Of a stretch of DNA of 43,976 bases, positions 36,187-42,765 are shown in pieces (the first letter of the stretch is position 1; every line of letters begins with the position of its first letter). Position numbers and translations under genes: made by a program. This stretch comes from an uncultured Pelagibacteraceae bacterium (GTDB lineage Bacteria > Pseudomonadota > Alphaproteobacteria > Pelagibacterales > Pelagibacteraceae). The DNA is taken from NCBI GenBank assembly GCA_902595795.1, contig CACJRK010000009.1, positions 1-43,976 of the forward strand, written 5' to 3'. Under the pieces are notes generated by a model. That model ran no database searches and was not told the origin of the DNA. It worked only from the letters and a program-made list of their open reading frames with translations.

Positions 36187-36930
36187 ATGAATAAATCATC
36201 TTTTTTTATTGCTGGCCAGCACGCAGTAATTGAAGCTCTTAGAAATCCTAGAAGAAAGGTTTTAAGAGTTTTTTTAACTGAAGATGCAAAAAAAAATATC
36301 CATAGAAAAAATCCAAAACAAAATGTTTTAAATGATGTAAAAATTTACTTTAAATCTAAAAAAGAATTAGACAAATACACAAATAAAGAACAATTGATGC
36401 ATGGAGGGTATGTTGCTGAAATTGAACATTTAGATCAACCAGACTTAAAAGAATTTATTAAAGAAAAAAATAAATGTACTTTAGTTTGTTTGGATGAAGT
36501 ATCTGATCCAAGAAACATTGGATCATTAATTAGAAGTGCTGCTTCATTTAAAATTGATGGTTTAATTATTAAGCAAAGACATTTTCCTAACGATAGTAAG
36601 TTAATGTATAAATCAGCAAGTGGGTGCATGGAACACTTAAATATTTTTGAGGTATCAAATATTAATTCTACACTTAAAAATTTAAAAGAAAAAAATTTTT
36701 GGGTTTATGGTTTTGATTCTAAGGGAGAAAATGATTTTACAGACATTAAATGGGAAGGAAAAAATATTCTTCTTTTTGGATCTGAAGGTTTTGGAATGAG
36801 ACAACATACAGGAAAATATGCAGATTTTTTTGTTAAAATAGATATAAATAAAGATGTTGAAAGTTTAAATATATCAAATAGTGCAGCAATAGTATTTCAT
36901 CATTTGAGTTATTTAAAAAAAAAGAGTTGA
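36187..36930 (+). CDS. rlmB: TrmH-family 23S rRNA 2'-O-ribose methyltransferase, RlmB type
   Basis: It methylates a guanosine ribose in domain V of 23S rRNA with SAM. An N-terminal substrate-binding domain (GQHAVIEALRNPRRKVLRVFLTEDA, about residues 9-75) precedes the SPOUT domain. SPOUT motifs are LDEVSDPRNIGSLIRSAASF, LLFGSEGFGMR and LNISNSAAIVFHHL, which form the knotted SAM site. At 247 aa it is normal. It diverges from the tRNA-Tyr/tuf unit and tRNA-Thr follows 33 bp later. Confidence 0.9.
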   Translation: MNKSSFFIAGQHAVIEALRNPRRKVLRVFLTEDAKKNIHRKNPKQNVLNDVKIYFKSKKELDKYTNKEQLMHGGYVAEIEHLDQPDLKEFIKEKNKCTLVCLDEVSDPRNIGSLIRSAASFKIDGLIIKQRHFPNDSKLMYKSASGCMEHLNIFEVSNINSTLKNLKEKNFWVYGFDSKGENDFTDIKWEGKNILLFGSEGFGMRQHTGKYADFFVKIDINKDVESLNISNSAAIVFHHLSYLKKKS

Positions 36931-36963: not shown

Positions 36964-37039
36964 GCCCTTGTAGCTCAGCTGGTAGAGCAATTGATTTGTA
37001 ATCAATAGGTCCGCGGTTCGAATCCGTGCGGGGGCACCA
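36964..37039 (+). tRNA. tRNA-Thr (TGT anticodon), attachment site of the micro-island array
   Basis: The 76-nt gene has the acceptor GCCCTTG paired with CGGGGGC, the D-arm TAGCTCAGCTGGTAGAGC, the anticodon loop TTTGTAA (anticodon TGT) and an encoded CCA. Its 3' portion, from the anticodon stem at 36993 through CCA and 12 bp beyond to 37051, is repeated exactly at 38066-38124 and 39439-39497. It is therefore both a functional tRNA gene and the left junction of three small integrated cassettes. Confidence 0.95.
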
Positions 37040-37096
37040 TCACTCAATAAATTCAACACTAATTTTTTTTGCTAATTCTAAAAATTCTTAATTATT

Positions 37097-37138
37097 GTGT
37101 CGTGAGTGTGTCGTAGTAGTGTCGTGATCAAGTGGTCG
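37097..37138 (+). repeat. Left arm-type repeats of micro-island 1 (GTGTCG x3, 11-bp period) plus GTGGTCG
   Basis: GTGTCG occurs at 37097, 37108 and 37119, exactly 11 bp apart and so on one face of the helix. GTGGTCG follows at 37132, 13 bp after the last unit. The same architecture with different unit sequences is found in micro-islands 2 and 3. The likely role is integrase arm-binding, by analogy with phage attP sites. Confidence 0.7.
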
Positions 37139-37209
37139 TAAGACTTTTAATCAGTCAAAAGTTTATATGTCAAAAATGTTAATTCAATTATAATTAAAGC
37201 TTCAATCAT

Positions 37210-37731
37210 TTAAAATTTAGATTGAGATAAACCATATTTTTTGCATCTCCACACTTGCACCCATTCTATATTTAATCCTTTTTTTCCAATTTTTTTTCTA
37301 TATTTTTTATCTTTATTTGATTTTATATAAGATTCTTTTGAATAACCCACTTGAACTTTTCCTTGAAGTCTATCTATATAAACTATCCAAAAACGATCTT
37401 TAAAATCAGCGCTGTACCATTCGTTCCAATCAGATATGAAAGTATCATATGTTAAAACTTCTCCAGACTTAGTAACATGTTTTGCATTTTTTTCTAAAGG
37501 TCTATTCCATGATTGGACACGGGTTTCATCTATTTTATTAACCTCAAAAGTTACTTTATTACCACCCGACCCTTGAATTATATCAATAAACTTTTCATCA
37601 AAATTTAGATAAATAATATTTTTTTCAACTATCTCTACTAGGCCTTGACACTGAAGTTTAACTTTTGCTAAAGCGTTTCCACTTAACAACAAACCCAGAA
37701 CCACGATCCCTAAAAGTTTTTTCACTAACAT
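37210..37731 (-). CDS. Exported protein of unknown function with MKKLLG-type signal peptide
   Basis: I do not recognise the mature part. The N-terminus MLVKKLLGIVVLGLLLSGNALA is a clear Sec signal peptide with likely cleavage after ALA, leaving about 150 aa of periplasmic or secreted protein with tryptophans and a basic C-terminal half (KSNKDKKYRKKIGKKG). A GTG at 37725 may be the real start: it overlaps the stop of the upstream gene as TAGTG and gives MKKLLGIVVLG exactly. It is the second gene of the micro-island 1 pair. The signal-peptide DNA is nearly identical to that of four other genes nearby. Confidence 0.7.
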   Translation of the reverse strand: MLVKKLLGIVVLGLLLSGNALAKVKLQCQGLVEIVEKNIIYLNFDEKFIDIIQGSGGNKVTFEVNKIDETRVQSWNRPLEKNAKHVTKSGEVLTYDTFISDWNEWYSADFKDRFWIVYIDRLQGKVQVGYSKESYIKSNKDKKYRKKIGKKGLNIEWVQVWRCKKYGLSQSKF

Positions 37732-37970
37732 CTTGCAGGTTCTGCTGGTTGCATATCAGCGTCTTTATCTTCTCTTTCAAAAAACTGAACCATAGATTGA
37801 ACATTTGCTCTTCTTCCAACTACAAATTTATAACCATCAACACATACTGTTGCGATTGTATAATTGAACTCTTTGGCTTTTAAGGTTTTCTCTTCAATTA
37901 ATCTTATTTCTGCAAAAGCATTCACACTCAAAAATAAACCCAGAACCACGATCCCTAAAAGTTTTTTCAT
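37725..37970 (-). CDS. Small exported protein of unknown function (81 aa)
   Basis: MKKLLGIVVLGLFLSVNAFA is a Sec signal peptide with likely cleavage after AFA, leaving about 61 aa. The mature part has two cysteines (one in ATVCVDGYKF, one at the C-terminus) that could form a disulfide. I do not recognise it; the GYKFVVG stretch suggests a small beta protein. The stop TAG overlaps the GTG start of the next gene (TAGTG), so the two are probably translationally coupled. Right-arm integrase-type repeats begin 19 nt upstream of its ATG, inside its promoter region. Confidence 0.7.
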   Translation of the reverse strand: MKKLLGIVVLGLFLSVNAFAEIRLIEEKTLKAKEFNYTIATVCVDGYKFVVGRRANVQSMVQFFEREDKDADMQPAEPARC

Positions 37971-37988
37971 TATGAAAACTTTAGCATT

Positions 37989-38005
37989 GTGTCGTACGTG
38001 TGTCG
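37989..38005 (+). repeat. Right arm-type repeats of micro-island 1 (GTGTCG x2)
   Basis: GTGTCG at 37989 and 38000 are 11 bp apart and carry the same unit as the left arm of this cassette. They lie 60-77 bp from the tRNA-Thr fragment and 19 nt from the ATG of the first gene. Confidence 0.65.
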
Positions 38006-38065
38006 AGATTACTGATGATTGTTTAGAAGTATTGCTAAAGCATATTTATTTGATTGATGATACAA

Positions 38066-38112
38066 GATTTGTAATCAATAGGTCCGCGGTTCGAATCCGT
38101 GCGGGGGCACCA
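38066..38112 (+). pseudogene. tRNA-Thr 3' fragment (att copy 2)
   Basis: The 47 bases from the anticodon stem to CCA are identical to tRNA-Thr, and the identity continues 12 bp past CCA (to 38124). The D-arm and 5' acceptor strand are missing, so it cannot be a functional tRNA. It marks the junction between micro-islands 1 and 2. Confidence 0.95.
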
Positions 38113-38179
38113 TCACTCAATAAAATCAACGTTAATTTTTTTTCAGAATTTTAATTTTAATCAAATTTCTTTAATGAGT

Positions 38180-38221
38180 GTGACGCCAGTGTGACGTGAG
38201 TGTGATGTGATCAAGTGGTCG
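38180..38221 (+). repeat. Left arm-type repeats of micro-island 2 (GTGACG-like x3) plus GTGGTCG
   Basis: Three units at an exact 11-bp period, then GTGGTCG 13 bp after the last, the same spacing as in micro-island 1. The GTGGTCG ends only 2 bp from the stop codon of the lipoprotein gene. Confidence 0.7.
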
Positions 38222-38223
38222 TT

Positions 38224-38616
38224 TTAATCAATTCTAAATTTAAAATTTTTAAATTTAACATCTTTGAGATTGATATTAGTTATTTGTTTGCACTTTATAT
38301 TATCTAAGTCTTTATCTATGTCAGGAAAGTCACCTGTTGATATAACTATTTCTTGTCCTGGTTCTAGAACATCTTTTGTTTCTAATAGTATGGAGCTAAT
38401 AGTCTTATCTTTTGTCGACACATCAAATATAAATGAAGGTTGAAGAGCAAGAGATGATTTATTTTTATACTTAAATATTAATAGACAATTTGTTAAAGGA
38501 GCATCCCATTTTTCTATTATAATATCATATGCATCATCACTAAATTTGATAGCAGTACCAGTTGCACAACCTGTTAATAAAAAACCCAGAACCACGAACC
38601 CTAAAAGTTTTTTCAT
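38224..38616 (-). CDS. Predicted lipoprotein with MKKLLG-type signal peptide
   Basis: MKKLLGFVVLGFLLTGCATG is a lipoprotein signal peptide with lipobox LTGC, so Cys17 should be lipidated. The roughly 113-aa mature domain resembles no family I can name; its alternating pattern (NCLLIFKYKNKSSLALQPSFIFDV, EPGQEIVIS) suggests a beta-sandwich, as in small lipoproteins related to FxLYD-type domains, but this is a guess. Its ATG overlaps the TGA of the upstream HNH gene (ATGA). The signal-peptide DNA is the shared module with one change (ATC to TTC). Confidence 0.75.
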   Translation of the reverse strand: MKKLLGFVVLGFLLTGCATGTAIKFSDDAYDIIIEKWDAPLTNCLLIFKYKNKSSLALQPSFIFDVSTKDKTISSILLETKDVLEPGQEIVISTGDFPDIDKDLDNIKCKQITNINLKDVKFKNFKFRID

Positions 38617-39344
38617 ACTTTTCCCATCTCTTTTTCTTTTGCTAAAACTTTTTTAATTATATCATTATTAAACTGATCACTGTCCTTTGATTTTTCAGTT
38701 CTTCTATGGCAATTAGGACATACGGCAGCAACATTTTCGGGATGGTCAGGTCCGCCTTTGCTAATTGGTATTAAGTGATGGACTTCTAAATAAGGTGTTC
38801 CATTTCTAGTTTCAAAGGGTGCGGGAGTATCGCAACTTTCACAAATACCTTTTGATCTTTGAATTGCATATGAATGAACAGCTGTACTTGTTGAGCGCCC
38901 CTTTGATGTTGTCTTATAAGTTCGAACTTTAACAATAGAATTTTTATATGCGTTCTCTCTTAATCTAATTAAAGGATTTTTAATTATGTCTGGTGTCTCT
39001 GATACATATTTATACAATCTGTCACTAACAGGAATTGCATAAATTTGTTTTATTGGAGAATAATCGTTAACCAAATCAATTGTCTTATCTGTTGCAACTA
39101 AATAAGGGTCACCAATTTTTTTTCCTGTTTTTTTATTTGTTTTTTGTGCAACTTTAACTAAAGCTCTGAATTTAGTACCTAAAGGATTATCTTCTCTTAT
39201 TGATCTTGGAAATTCTACACGTACATCTTCAGCAAACATTTCTACAGGTCTAACTCTTGGTCTACTTATTCCTGCTTCTTTAAATGTTTCTAACAAAACT
39301 CCTGTGAAATAATCTCCAACTTTATAATCTACGTTAAATTTCAT
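38613..39344 (-). CDS. HNH endonuclease family protein
   Basis: The C-terminal third is a zinc-supported HNH domain: CESC at 168-171, LEVHHLIP with His189 and His190, ENVAAVCPNCHRR with Asn204, Cys209, Cys212 and His213. The spacing fits McrA-like HNH nucleases. The N-terminal 150 residues are unrecognised; they are basic and could bind DNA. There is no signal peptide, so it acts in the cytoplasm, unlike the lipoprotein it is coupled to by an ATGA overlap. Possible roles are defence against phage DNA, a homing or island-transfer nuclease, or competition between elements. The right arm repeats start 18 nt upstream of its ATG. Confidence 0.85.
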   Translation of the reverse strand: MKFNVDYKVGDYFTGVLLETFKEAGISRPRVRPVEMFAEDVRVEFPRSIREDNPLGTKFRALVKVAQKTNKKTGKKIGDPYLVATDKTIDLVNDYSPIKQIYAIPVSDRLYKYVSETPDIIKNPLIRLRENAYKNSIVKVRTYKTTSKGRSTSTAVHSYAIQRSKGICESCDTPAPFETRNGTPYLEVHHLIPISKGGPDHPENVAAVCPNCHRRTEKSKDSDQFNNDIIKKVLAKEKEMGKV

Positions 39345-39361
39345 AAAAAAACTTTATCACT

Positions 39362-39378
39362 GTGACGATAGTGTGAAT
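39362..39378 (+). repeat. Right arm-type repeats of micro-island 2 (GTGACG, GTGAAT)
   Basis: Two units 11 bp apart, using the GTGA variant of this cassette's left arm. They lie 18 nt upstream of the HNH gene start and about 60 bp from tRNA-Thr fragment 3, matching the layout of micro-island 1. Confidence 0.6.
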
Positions 39379-39434
39379 AGATCAAAGTTAAATATCAAAT
39401 TTTGTTGGAAACAAATGTCTATTTAAAGTTTTAT

Positions 39435-39485
39435 AATTGATTTGTAATCAATAGGTCCGCGGTTCGAATCCGTGCGGGGGCACCA
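39435..39485 (+). pseudogene. tRNA-Thr 3' fragment (att copy 3)
   Basis: It is identical to tRNA-Thr from the anticodon stem to CCA and on to 39497; the perfect 59-bp repeat is 39439-39497. It lacks the 5' half. It is the boundary between micro-islands 2 and 3. Confidence 0.95.
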
Positions 39486-39541
39486 TCACTCAATAAAATC
39501 AACATTAAATTTTTTCAAAAAGCTAAATTTCTATTCTGACT

Positions 39542-39605
39542 GTGCTCATAGTGTGCTTTGATTGTGTATAGAGTGTGTATGGATTGTGTATCAATCAAGT
39601 GGTCG
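39542..39605 (+). repeat. Left arm-type repeats of micro-island 3 (five units, 11-bp period) plus GTGGTCG
   Basis: This is the longest phased array: five hexamers of the form GTGNWY at exactly 11-bp steps, then the invariant TCAAGTGGTCG. The last three units are identical (GTGTAT). The array ends 5 bp from the stop of the membrane-protein gene. Confidence 0.7.
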
Positions 39606-39610
39606 TTTGA

Positions 39611-40042
39611 TTATTTTGTTGTTTTAATTTTTTTAATTTTAGGAAGCAGCCAAGTATTAAATAAATGACCTACCCAATTCATTAATAAGAAAAATGGTAT
39701 GACAAGAGCTATAACCCAAGCTCCCATTAAATTAAACAAATAAGCCATCATTCCAAAAATCCAGATACACCAACTGACAAAACAAATAATTCCTAAACCA
39801 ATTAAGATAATAATTTTTATAATTATAATTGGATAATAAAAATTCTTTATACTTTTAGGAATTTCAAAATCAGAAATAAAGCCAAACACTCCAACTGAAA
39901 CTAACATAGCGATTGTTGCTGGTGCCCAAATATTTAAAGGAATAATATATTTAGAATAAGGTTCACCTGCATAAACATTTCCACATAACAACAAACCCAG
40001 AACCACGATCCCTAAAAGTTTCTTCACTAAGGTTTTAAACAT
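39611..40042 (-). CDS. Small membrane protein of unknown function with MKKLLG-type signal peptide
   Basis: The N-terminus KKLLGIVVLGLLLCGNVYA is a signal peptide with likely cleavage after VYA. The mature part has about three to four hydrophobic segments (near residues 40-58, 70-100 and 105-130) and a basic C-terminal end (KIKKIKTTK). I do not recognise a family. A GTG at 40027 may be the true start, since it overlaps the stop of the upstream gene as TAGTG and gives the exact MKKLLGIVVLG sequence; the ATG at 40042 adds five residues. Confidence 0.6.
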   Translation of the reverse strand: MFKTLVKKLLGIVVLGLLLCGNVYAGEPYSKYIIPLNIWAPATIAMLVSVGVFGFISDFEIPKSIKNFYYPIIIIKIIILIGLGIICFVSWCIWIFGMMAYLFNLMGAWVIALVIPFFLLMNWVGHLFNTWLLPKIKKIKTTK

Positions 40043-40308
40043 TGAACAACAAATCTATTCTTATTTTTATCTTCATTGCCACTTCGTAAAACACAAGTCA
40101 CTAATTTTTTATCTTTGATTAGATGATATAAAATTGATGGGCTATCATAATTTTTTGAAGGAAGTACATTTGTACTAGATAATATATACCCTTCATTAAG
40201 CAAGTCATTAACAGTAGTGACTTTCTTTAGTACTTCAACTTTATCATTAGAGTTAACATTCCCACTTAAAAACAAAACCAGAATCACAATCCCTAAAAGT
40301 TTTTTCAT
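40027..40308 (-). CDS. Small exported protein of unknown function (93 aa)
   Basis: I chose the ATG at 40308 (MKKLLGIVILVLFLSGNVNS) over an in-frame GTG 15 bp upstream because it aligns with the shared signal-peptide module. The mature part, about 73 aa, starts near NDKVEVLKK and has two cysteines (LVTCVLRSG, VVQCLKP) in a pattern that suggests a small beta protein with a disulfide. This copy of the signal DNA is the most diverged of those with an intact start. It is the first gene of the micro-island 3 pair. Confidence 0.65.
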   Translation of the reverse strand: MKKLLGIVILVLFLSGNVNSNDKVEVLKKVTTVNDLLNEGYILSSTNVLPSKNYDSPSILYHLIKDKKLVTCVLRSGNEDKNKNRFVVQCLKP

Positions 40309-40393
40309 TAAAATTAATCCCACAATCTATTTTTACTTTATATATAATGCATTTAACCTAAATAAATTAGAATGTATATACGACGTTCATTAT

Positions 40394-41164
40394 TTAATTA
40401 GTTTCTTTTCTTATTTGTTCAATTTTAATCTTTTTTTGTAAACTTCTATTTTTATCGTAAAGAAGATTAAACTTTATTTTGTTGTTAGTTTTTACGGTAA
40501 TTGATTTAGCATTTCTTACTTCTAAATTATCTGCAACAGCACTAATTGGTCGCTTAGATGGATTCAAATTTGTTATTAAAATTTTAGATTTATCATTCAC
40601 AATTTTACCCTTCCATCTTCTTGGTCTAAAAGCACTTATTGGAGATATTGATAATTTTTTTGAATGTAGACTTAAAATAGGACCATGCACAGACAAATTA
40701 TAAGCTGTACTTCCTGCTGGTGTTGAAACTAATACACCGTCTGAAACTAAATTTTTAATTATTTGTCTTGATCCCTGCTTAATTGATAATGAAGCAGCCT
40801 GTCTACTTTGTCTGAGAACAGAAACTTCATTTATCGCTATAGATCTTTTAATTTGATTGTTTTTATTTTTAACAATCATTTCTAAAGGAGAAATTGAAAC
40901 CAAATTTGCTTTTGAAAGATTTTTAATTATATCTTTAGAGGAAAATTTATTCATAAGGAAACCATAGCTTCCAGAATTAATCCCATAAAAATGTTTTTTT
41001 GAAGCCTTATTTCTTTTAAGTGTTTGAAGCATAAAGCCATCACCACCAATAACAATTATAAGGTTTTCTTTTTTAAAATGATTAAATTTTATCTTTTTTA
41101 ATAATAAATTTTTAATCTCAGATGATTTTTTATTTTTATCTGAAATGATTTGAAGTTTACTCAT
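40394..41164 (-). CDS. nadK: NAD kinase
   Basis: It phosphorylates NAD to NADP in the cytoplasm and is the only known route to NADP. The family motif is VIGGDGFMLQTLKR (about residues 38-51), followed by GINSGSYGFLMN and SDGVLVSTPAGSTAYNLSVHGPILS. At 256 aa it is typical of alphaproteobacteria. The ATG begins only 4 bp after the CCA end of tRNA-Leu, so the mRNA most likely starts within the tRNA transcript and becomes nearly leaderless after tRNA 3' processing. Any element inserted in tRNA-Leu must therefore keep a promoter for this gene. Confidence 0.92.
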   Translation of the reverse strand: MSKLQIISDKNKKSSEIKNLLLKKIKFNHFKKENLIIVIGGDGFMLQTLKRNKASKKHFYGINSGSYGFLMNKFSSKDIIKNLSKANLVSISPLEMIVKNKNNQIKRSIAINEVSVLRQSRQAASLSIKQGSRQIIKNLVSDGVLVSTPAGSTAYNLSVHGPILSLHSKKLSISPISAFRPRRWKGKIVNDKSKILITNLNPSKRPISAVADNLEVRNAKSITVKTNNKIKFNLLYDKNRSLQKKIKIEQIRKETN

Positions 41165-42732: not shown

Positions 42733-42765
42733 ACCTAGAACCACGATCCCTAAAAGCTTTTTTAT
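42733..42765 (-). pseudogene. Relic of the MKKLLG signal-peptide module (ATG changed to ATA)
   Basis: On the minus strand the codons read ATA, then KKLLGIVVLG with nearly the same DNA as the five live copies (including GGGATCGTGGTTCT). The start codon is lost, and the frame is not that of the fusion gene beginning 12 bp downstream. It looks like a leftover from an earlier secreted-protein gene in this element, or a DNA site kept for another reason. Confidence 0.75.

Follow-up and report, generated by a model that had tools for sequence, protein, structure and literature searches.

Why should the 3′ half of one tRNA gene stand three times in a row, without a mismatch, in a genome of 1.1 Mb? 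The question is raised by the tRNA-Thr locus in a stretch of 43,976 nucleotides (the window; contig CACJRK010000009.1 of assembly GCA_902595795.1, forward strand) from an uncultured Pelagibacteraceae bacterium, whose genome (Pelagibacter, SAR11) is 84% complete. A sequence-only reading of the window had described three perfect 59-bp att repeats and had seen in them the borders of three stacked, integrase-less cassettes, a minimal mobile unit targeted to the tRNA. The repeats at 36993-37051, 38066-38124 and 39439-39497 were confirmed (0 mismatches; shuffled sequence is expected to yield none), as were the core spacings of 1,073 bp (cassette 1) and 1,373 bp (cassette 2). We propose, with a probability of about three in four, that the units are non-autonomous integrative cassettes mobilized in trans by the integrases of phages or satellites that target tRNA-Thr.

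The repeat, here called the core, runs from base 30 of the 76-nt tRNA-Thr(TGT) gene, in the anticodon stem, to 12 bp beyond the CCA. The gene itself (36964..37039, forward strand; ARAGORN) is the apparent target of integration (attB), and the cassette that lies nearest restores it. All three copies lie on the forward strand (sequence match): copy 1 starts cassette 1, copy 2 ends cassette 1 and starts cassette 2, and copy 3 ends cassette 2 and starts an incomplete unit 3. Of the three cassettes first described, two are complete core-to-core units; the third is a stretch from 39439 to about 40396, which has a normal right end and cargo and abuts nadK (40394..41164, reverse strand), the distal flank of the locus. 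When 40280-40420 was aligned to the consensus of left end plus core, the score was no better than that of shuffles; the distal repeat is unrecognisable, this end of unit 3 having decayed against nadK. The proximal flank is the gene of a TrmH/RlmB-type (SpoU) rRNA methylase (36187..36930, forward strand).

What surrounds the cores? On both sides of each core in the window, beyond the 59 bp noted earlier, lie short motifs with a period of 11 bp. At the right end the order is core, approximately 45 bp of AT-rich DNA, motifs every 11 bp and then a constant box, ATCAAGTGGTC; at the left end the matching motif class occurs twice, 11 bp apart, the first copy 78 bp upstream of the next core. Cassette 1 has the right-end arms TGTGTCG, TGTGTCG and AGTGTCG (37096..37124), the box at 37127..37137 and two left-end TGTGTCG arms (37988..38005, from 78 bp before core 2). 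In cassette 2 the right-end arms are TGTGACG, TGTGACG and TGTGATG (38179..38207), the box is at 38210..38220 and the left-end arms are TGTGACG and TGTGAAT (39361..39378, from 78 bp before core 3). TGTGTCG is thus found at both ends of cassette 1 and TGTGACG at both ends of cassette 2. Unit 3 has five right-end repeats with the same spacing (TGTGCTC, TGTGCTT and three times TGTGTAT; 39541..39591), followed by the box at 39594..39604 (all of these on the forward strand). A search with ATCAAGTGGTC for further arrays in the window's own genome gave two extra matches to the box, both without arms, tRNA or core.

Is the site occupied in the same way in related genomes? The sequence-only reading had proposed this comparison and had held that the same three units in all relatives would point to an old local duplication. 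In an even draw of 151 genomes of the same genus, probed with a 68-bp core, 117 matched, 57 of them with two or more matches (a small number of matches with lower scores may stem from other tRNAs). The locus, with its backbone of SpoU/TrmH methylase, tRNA-Thr and nadK, was read in 80 genomes, the genomes surveyed being incomplete. Among the 59 loci with the tRNA and a downstream nadK (window included) 10 are empty, one or two extra cores are present in 36, and in 13 there is a single core with leftover sequence, fractions that are not frequencies because the set was picked by match strength. At empty sites the nadK stop lies 45 bp past the tRNA; occupied loci in other Pelagibacter genomes hold one to four complete cassettes, with five cores at most (L050). 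Loci with zero, one or more cassettes were thus all found, and this presence/absence variation, together with the variable copy number, the differing cargo and a cassette identical across lineages (see below), supports the earlier picture of stacked, tRNA-targeted minimal units. Most records in the scan of named GTDB contigs are by name single-cell genomes (AG-/AH- isolates), and the worry about chimeric bins is therefore limited.

A set of 127 distinct core-to-core units of 411-7,742 bp, most of them shorter than 2.5 kb, was collected. An integrase was found in one (L113_0) and none was detected in the other 126. The left-arm pattern TG..TG at −78/−67 bp is present in 101 of the 127 units, the background inside cargo at 11-bp spacing being 0.27%. 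Left and right arms of one unit agree beyond permuted pairs (own 8.23, permuted 7.24, maximum 7.65; 100,000 permutations over the 127 units, P ≤ 1e-5, which is not a P value of independent events because related cassettes share arms); distinct-arm subsets of an earlier unit set gave the same result. The arm motif is thus element-specific and common to both ends of one cassette, and the layout is, judged by its sequence, that of a phage (lambda-type) attP, core and arm-type sites, split over the two ends of an integrated element. As in tRNA-targeted tyrosine-integrase elements, the core is the 3′ end of the tRNA, arm-type repeats lie on both sides and the tRNA is restored. The N-terminal domain of tyrosine integrases binds arm sites. 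A motif ATCAA near the core in 87 of the 127 units could be an IHF-like site, although we do not claim it as one.

The smallest unit (L445 unit 1), 411 bp from core to core, has a normal left end and lacks the right-end arm array. The first units of L076, L091, L114, L116 and L047 are 6-7 kb long and stand at the same tRNA, with a long open reading frame (ORF) of approximately 880-1,650 aa, different arm motifs (e.g., AAGTGAATAA repeats) and no detected integrase.

Do the cassettes move? The units L050_3, fourth in the array of AG-325-J17, and L470_0, which adjoins the tRNA in AG-904-F14 (both single-cell genomes), are 99.9% identical over 1,122 bp, as compared with 79.6% in the flanking methylase region; between the two cores the identity stays at 99-100%, and directly outside them it collapses. 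L040_1 and L068_0, in second and first position, respectively, are 98.4% identical (flank 80.8%), and L454_0 and L497_0 94% (flank 79.7%). Whole cassettes have evidently moved recently between different SAR11 lineages. They also recombine internally, since L452_0 and L508_0 have only the proximal 1.1 kb in common.

What could move units that lack a recombinase? Each has attP-like ends (the tRNA-Thr 3′ half core, the right arm array and the left arm pair) around one to few genes. In the mobilization in trans that we propose, a tyrosine integrase from a phage or phage satellite also targeting tRNA-Thr(UGU) would bind the arm sites and recombine the cassette core with the tRNA, restoring tRNA-Thr. 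Each integration would displace the old 3′ end and the earlier cassettes downstream, so that stacks would grow next to the tRNA. Besides the integrase as the agent and the element that supplies it, we infer a circle as the donor form and a route into the new cell.

Candidates for the supplying element stand at the same site. L119, a contig from IMG/VR, has the same tRNA-Thr core adjoining a gene for a 328-aa integrase, and encodes a primase/helicase-like protein and a small terminase subunit; its arms, TGCGGAC, recur in three cassettes (L050_0, L039_0 and L509_0). No structural genes were seen in L119 (1-8916), and it resembles a phage satellite of SAR11 more than a phage. In L379, a cellular genome, an integrase 73% identical to that of L119 lies on the nadK side of the site with attR against nadK, and the arms, TGTTGCA, recur in seven cassettes. 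L395, also a cellular genome, has a 78-aa integrase remnant with the arms TGTGGTC (recurring in nine cassettes) that abuts a pilin cassette. L113_0 is a 7.7-kb element at the tRNA-Thr core with an Arm-DNA-bind_3 integrase, a DUF5906 primase/helicase and small proteins. With its TGTAGTC arms at 11-bp spacing, L113 (2248-10581) is another satellite-like SAR11 element.

Several observations weigh against mobilization in trans by such helpers. The genome of the window (84% complete) gave no integrase of the L119 or the L113 type, and integrases of these types are rare in the genus (23/399, at any site). The arms of the L119 type begin 88-89 bp from the core rather than 78, one helical turn further, so that the cognate helper may be an element other than L119. 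Some cassette arm 7-mers (TGTGCCC, TGTTACC, TGTGCTC) also occur with integrases for other sites, and a match of arms is therefore no more than suggestive. Neither a circle nor an attP junction was seen, and in the viral contigs of IMG/VR no left ends of the cassette type were found. Because of the shared motifs and the arm offset we rate the assignment of the helper to integrases of the L119, L379 and L395 type as plausible only. A search of viral contigs for close relatives of the L119 integrase gave that integrase only, a profile search adding one distant match, and in INPHARED no pelagiphage with the tRNA-Thr core was found, the matches listed being phage tRNA genes only. L118 is likewise a phage tRNA array and was rejected; scans of viral contigs for arm-motif patterns were not used, the patterns being too short and matching by chance.

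Could the cassettes instead be decayed remnants of larger integrase-bearing elements, accretion products in the manner of cis-mobilizable elements (CIMEs), able to move only in cis, together with an active element next to them? The integrase remnant that adjoins a cassette in L395 speaks for it, and CIMEs by definition have lost the integration genes and kept attL and attR (PMC5704250); here att sites stand at both ends of 127 units, and one unit has an integrase. Similar integrase-less islands occur at ssrA in Dehalococcoides (PMC3146451), and the likeness extends to att-bounded units in the 3′ end of an RNA gene, in tandem, with integrase-bearing relatives at the same site. CIMEs are, however, described as decayed integrative and conjugative or integrative and mobilizable elements moved in cis (PMC5704250, PMC3146451), whereas the SAR11 units are mostly of 0.4-4 kb with one to few genes and paired element-specific arms. 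That 127 units are alike in their very small design and stereotyped ends while the cargo varies points to a self-maintaining kind, and one cassette (L050_3/L470_0) moved without its neighbors. We therefore regard decay as an unlikely explanation, though one to be taken seriously.

Such units would also be shuffled if homologous recombination, following DNA uptake for instance, took place between cores (47-59 bp) or between the conserved flanking genes; the att ends would then be relics of old integrations. Every array holds long perfect cores, hybrids whose arms do not match (e.g., L080_0, L053_1 and L045_0) resemble fusions of neighbors, and the common first 1.1 kb of L452_0 and L508_0 is what exchange within a cassette would leave. 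Yet the identity of L050_3 and L470_0 ends exactly at both cores, with flanks that are unrelated or 80% identical, and both the register of the arms and the co-specificity of left and right arms are kept across very different cargo, while relics would lose both. As the general explanation homologous recombination is thus quite improbable.

A system like an integron, served by its own chromosomal recombinase (for example the resident Xer-like PF00589 protein of 300-318 aa near glycosyltransferase genes), is very improbable. A PF00589 match was obtained in 38 of 50 genomes, usually one, the inspected examples having 300-318 aa and adjoining polysaccharide genes; Wilhelm et al. (2007; PMC2217521) listed a phage integrase in hypervariable region 2 (HVR2), and the one-way orientation of the cargo (89% of coding bp) is as in integrons. 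The Xer-like protein, however, has a SAM-like core-binding domain only and no recognizable arm-binding domain, so it should not read arm sites, and attC was not found in the HVRs by Wilhelm et al. (PMC2217521). In most genomes inspected the conserved Xer-like recombinase (L121 1144-2100, L122 985-1941, L134 56-766 and similar) lies in the polysaccharide hypervariable region. With integron cassettes the units share arrays of promiscuous small recombinase-less cassettes in one orientation, growing at a fixed end. They differ in that their boundaries are tRNA-Thr cores with the period-11 arm repeats typical of phage attP; no attI or attC was found (attC folding was not searched for), nor a resident or adjacent IntI. 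That the tRNA end was duplicated locally long ago and then inherited vertically, or that the repeats are an assembly error, is refuted by the empty sites, the variable number and cargo and the same type of locus in many single-cell and metagenome-assembled genomes.

Are cassettes of this kind already known? The sequence-only reading had compared them with tycheposons, tRNA-targeted cargo elements of streamlined marine bacteria. It was right that the units are much smaller; the comparison holds as an analogy only, since tycheposons, of 4-200 kb, have their own tyrosine recombinase (PMC10872708) and none was detected in the units of the window or in any but one of the 127, most of which are below 4 kb. 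Phage satellites (P4-like elements, phage-inducible chromosomal islands and phage-inducible chromosomal minimalist islands) are approached by L113 and L119, which carry integrase and primase/helicase at the same target, L119 also the small terminase subunit. The cassettes, by contrast, have no detected replication, packaging or integration genes, those of the window encoding exported proteins and an HNH nuclease, and would be satellites of satellites at most. The additive flexible genomic islands of Ca. Actinomarinales are small cassettes at tRNAs with tRNA-fragment direct repeats (PMC7771536); the parts of that account consulted give insertion targets and repeats, and there no arm sites, helper or integrase-less attP anatomy. 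In 2007 hypervariable regions with pilins and surface genes were reported for SAR11, one of them with flanking tRNA genes; no mechanism was given and no integron sites were found (PMC2217521). A description of the present cassette type was not found in the open-licence papers that were searched.

What do the cassettes carry? All cargo genes of the window are on the reverse strand. Cassette 1 encodes proteins of 173 aa (37210..37731) and 81 aa (37725..37970), both with an MKKLLG-type export leader and of no family; cassette 2 a 130-aa protein of no family with a lipoprotein-like leader (38224..38616) and a 243-aa HNH endonuclease (PF01844, E 3e-12; 38613..39344); and unit 3 a 143-aa membrane protein (39611..40042) and a 94-aa protein (40027..40311, ATG start at 40311), both with the shared leader. 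Of the coding bases in the first 70 units, 89% are oriented toward the tRNA. Pilin-like proteins with a TLIELL leader make up 45 of the 187 cargo proteins of at least 80 aa, their genes standing in tandem runs within single cassettes, and many others have the MKKLLG export leader. With Pfam and PADLOC, whose matches are candidate family names and no proof of defense, the 99 non-pilin cargo proteins gave DpnI, Mrr, MrcB_N, HNH, T5orf172 and DUF4268, and also trypsin-like, M60 peptidase and bacterial globin domains. Overall the predicted cargo is exported proteins, type IV pilins and defense-like nucleases.

Differing type IV pilin-like genes stand in tandem in L050 unit 2, L052 unit 0, L045 unit 0 and L094 units 0-1; L094 unit 1 has 13 small pilin-size ORFs in a row. 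A near-identical 32-bp segment encoding the export leader MKKLLGIVVLG is common to unrelated cargo genes, with copies in the window at 37694-37725, 37939-37970, 38585-38616, 39996-40027, 40277-40308 and 42734-42765. The genome has seven copies (≤3 mismatches), five of them within the window array, which suggests capture of the leader or recombination inside it.

SAR11 bacteria are among the most abundant bacterial groups of the ocean, have streamlined genomes and few known mobile elements. We advance tentatively, as somewhat less probable than not, that integrase-less cassettes of 0.4-4 kb could form a common pool for which tRNA-Thr is the fixed place of docking, that the phage or satellite integrases mobilizing them would divide them into arm-site classes, and that this trans-mobilized, integron-like cassette economy may be a main route by which SAR11 exchanges surface pilins, exported proteins and defense genes. 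The specificity of the integrase for arm motifs would then serve non-autonomous cargo as an address code. With a minimal, att-only cassette docking at a single tRNA, there would be a concrete and testable mechanism for gene exchange in SAR11 at very low DNA cost; the units look like a very small gene-swapping system that borrows the enzyme of another element.

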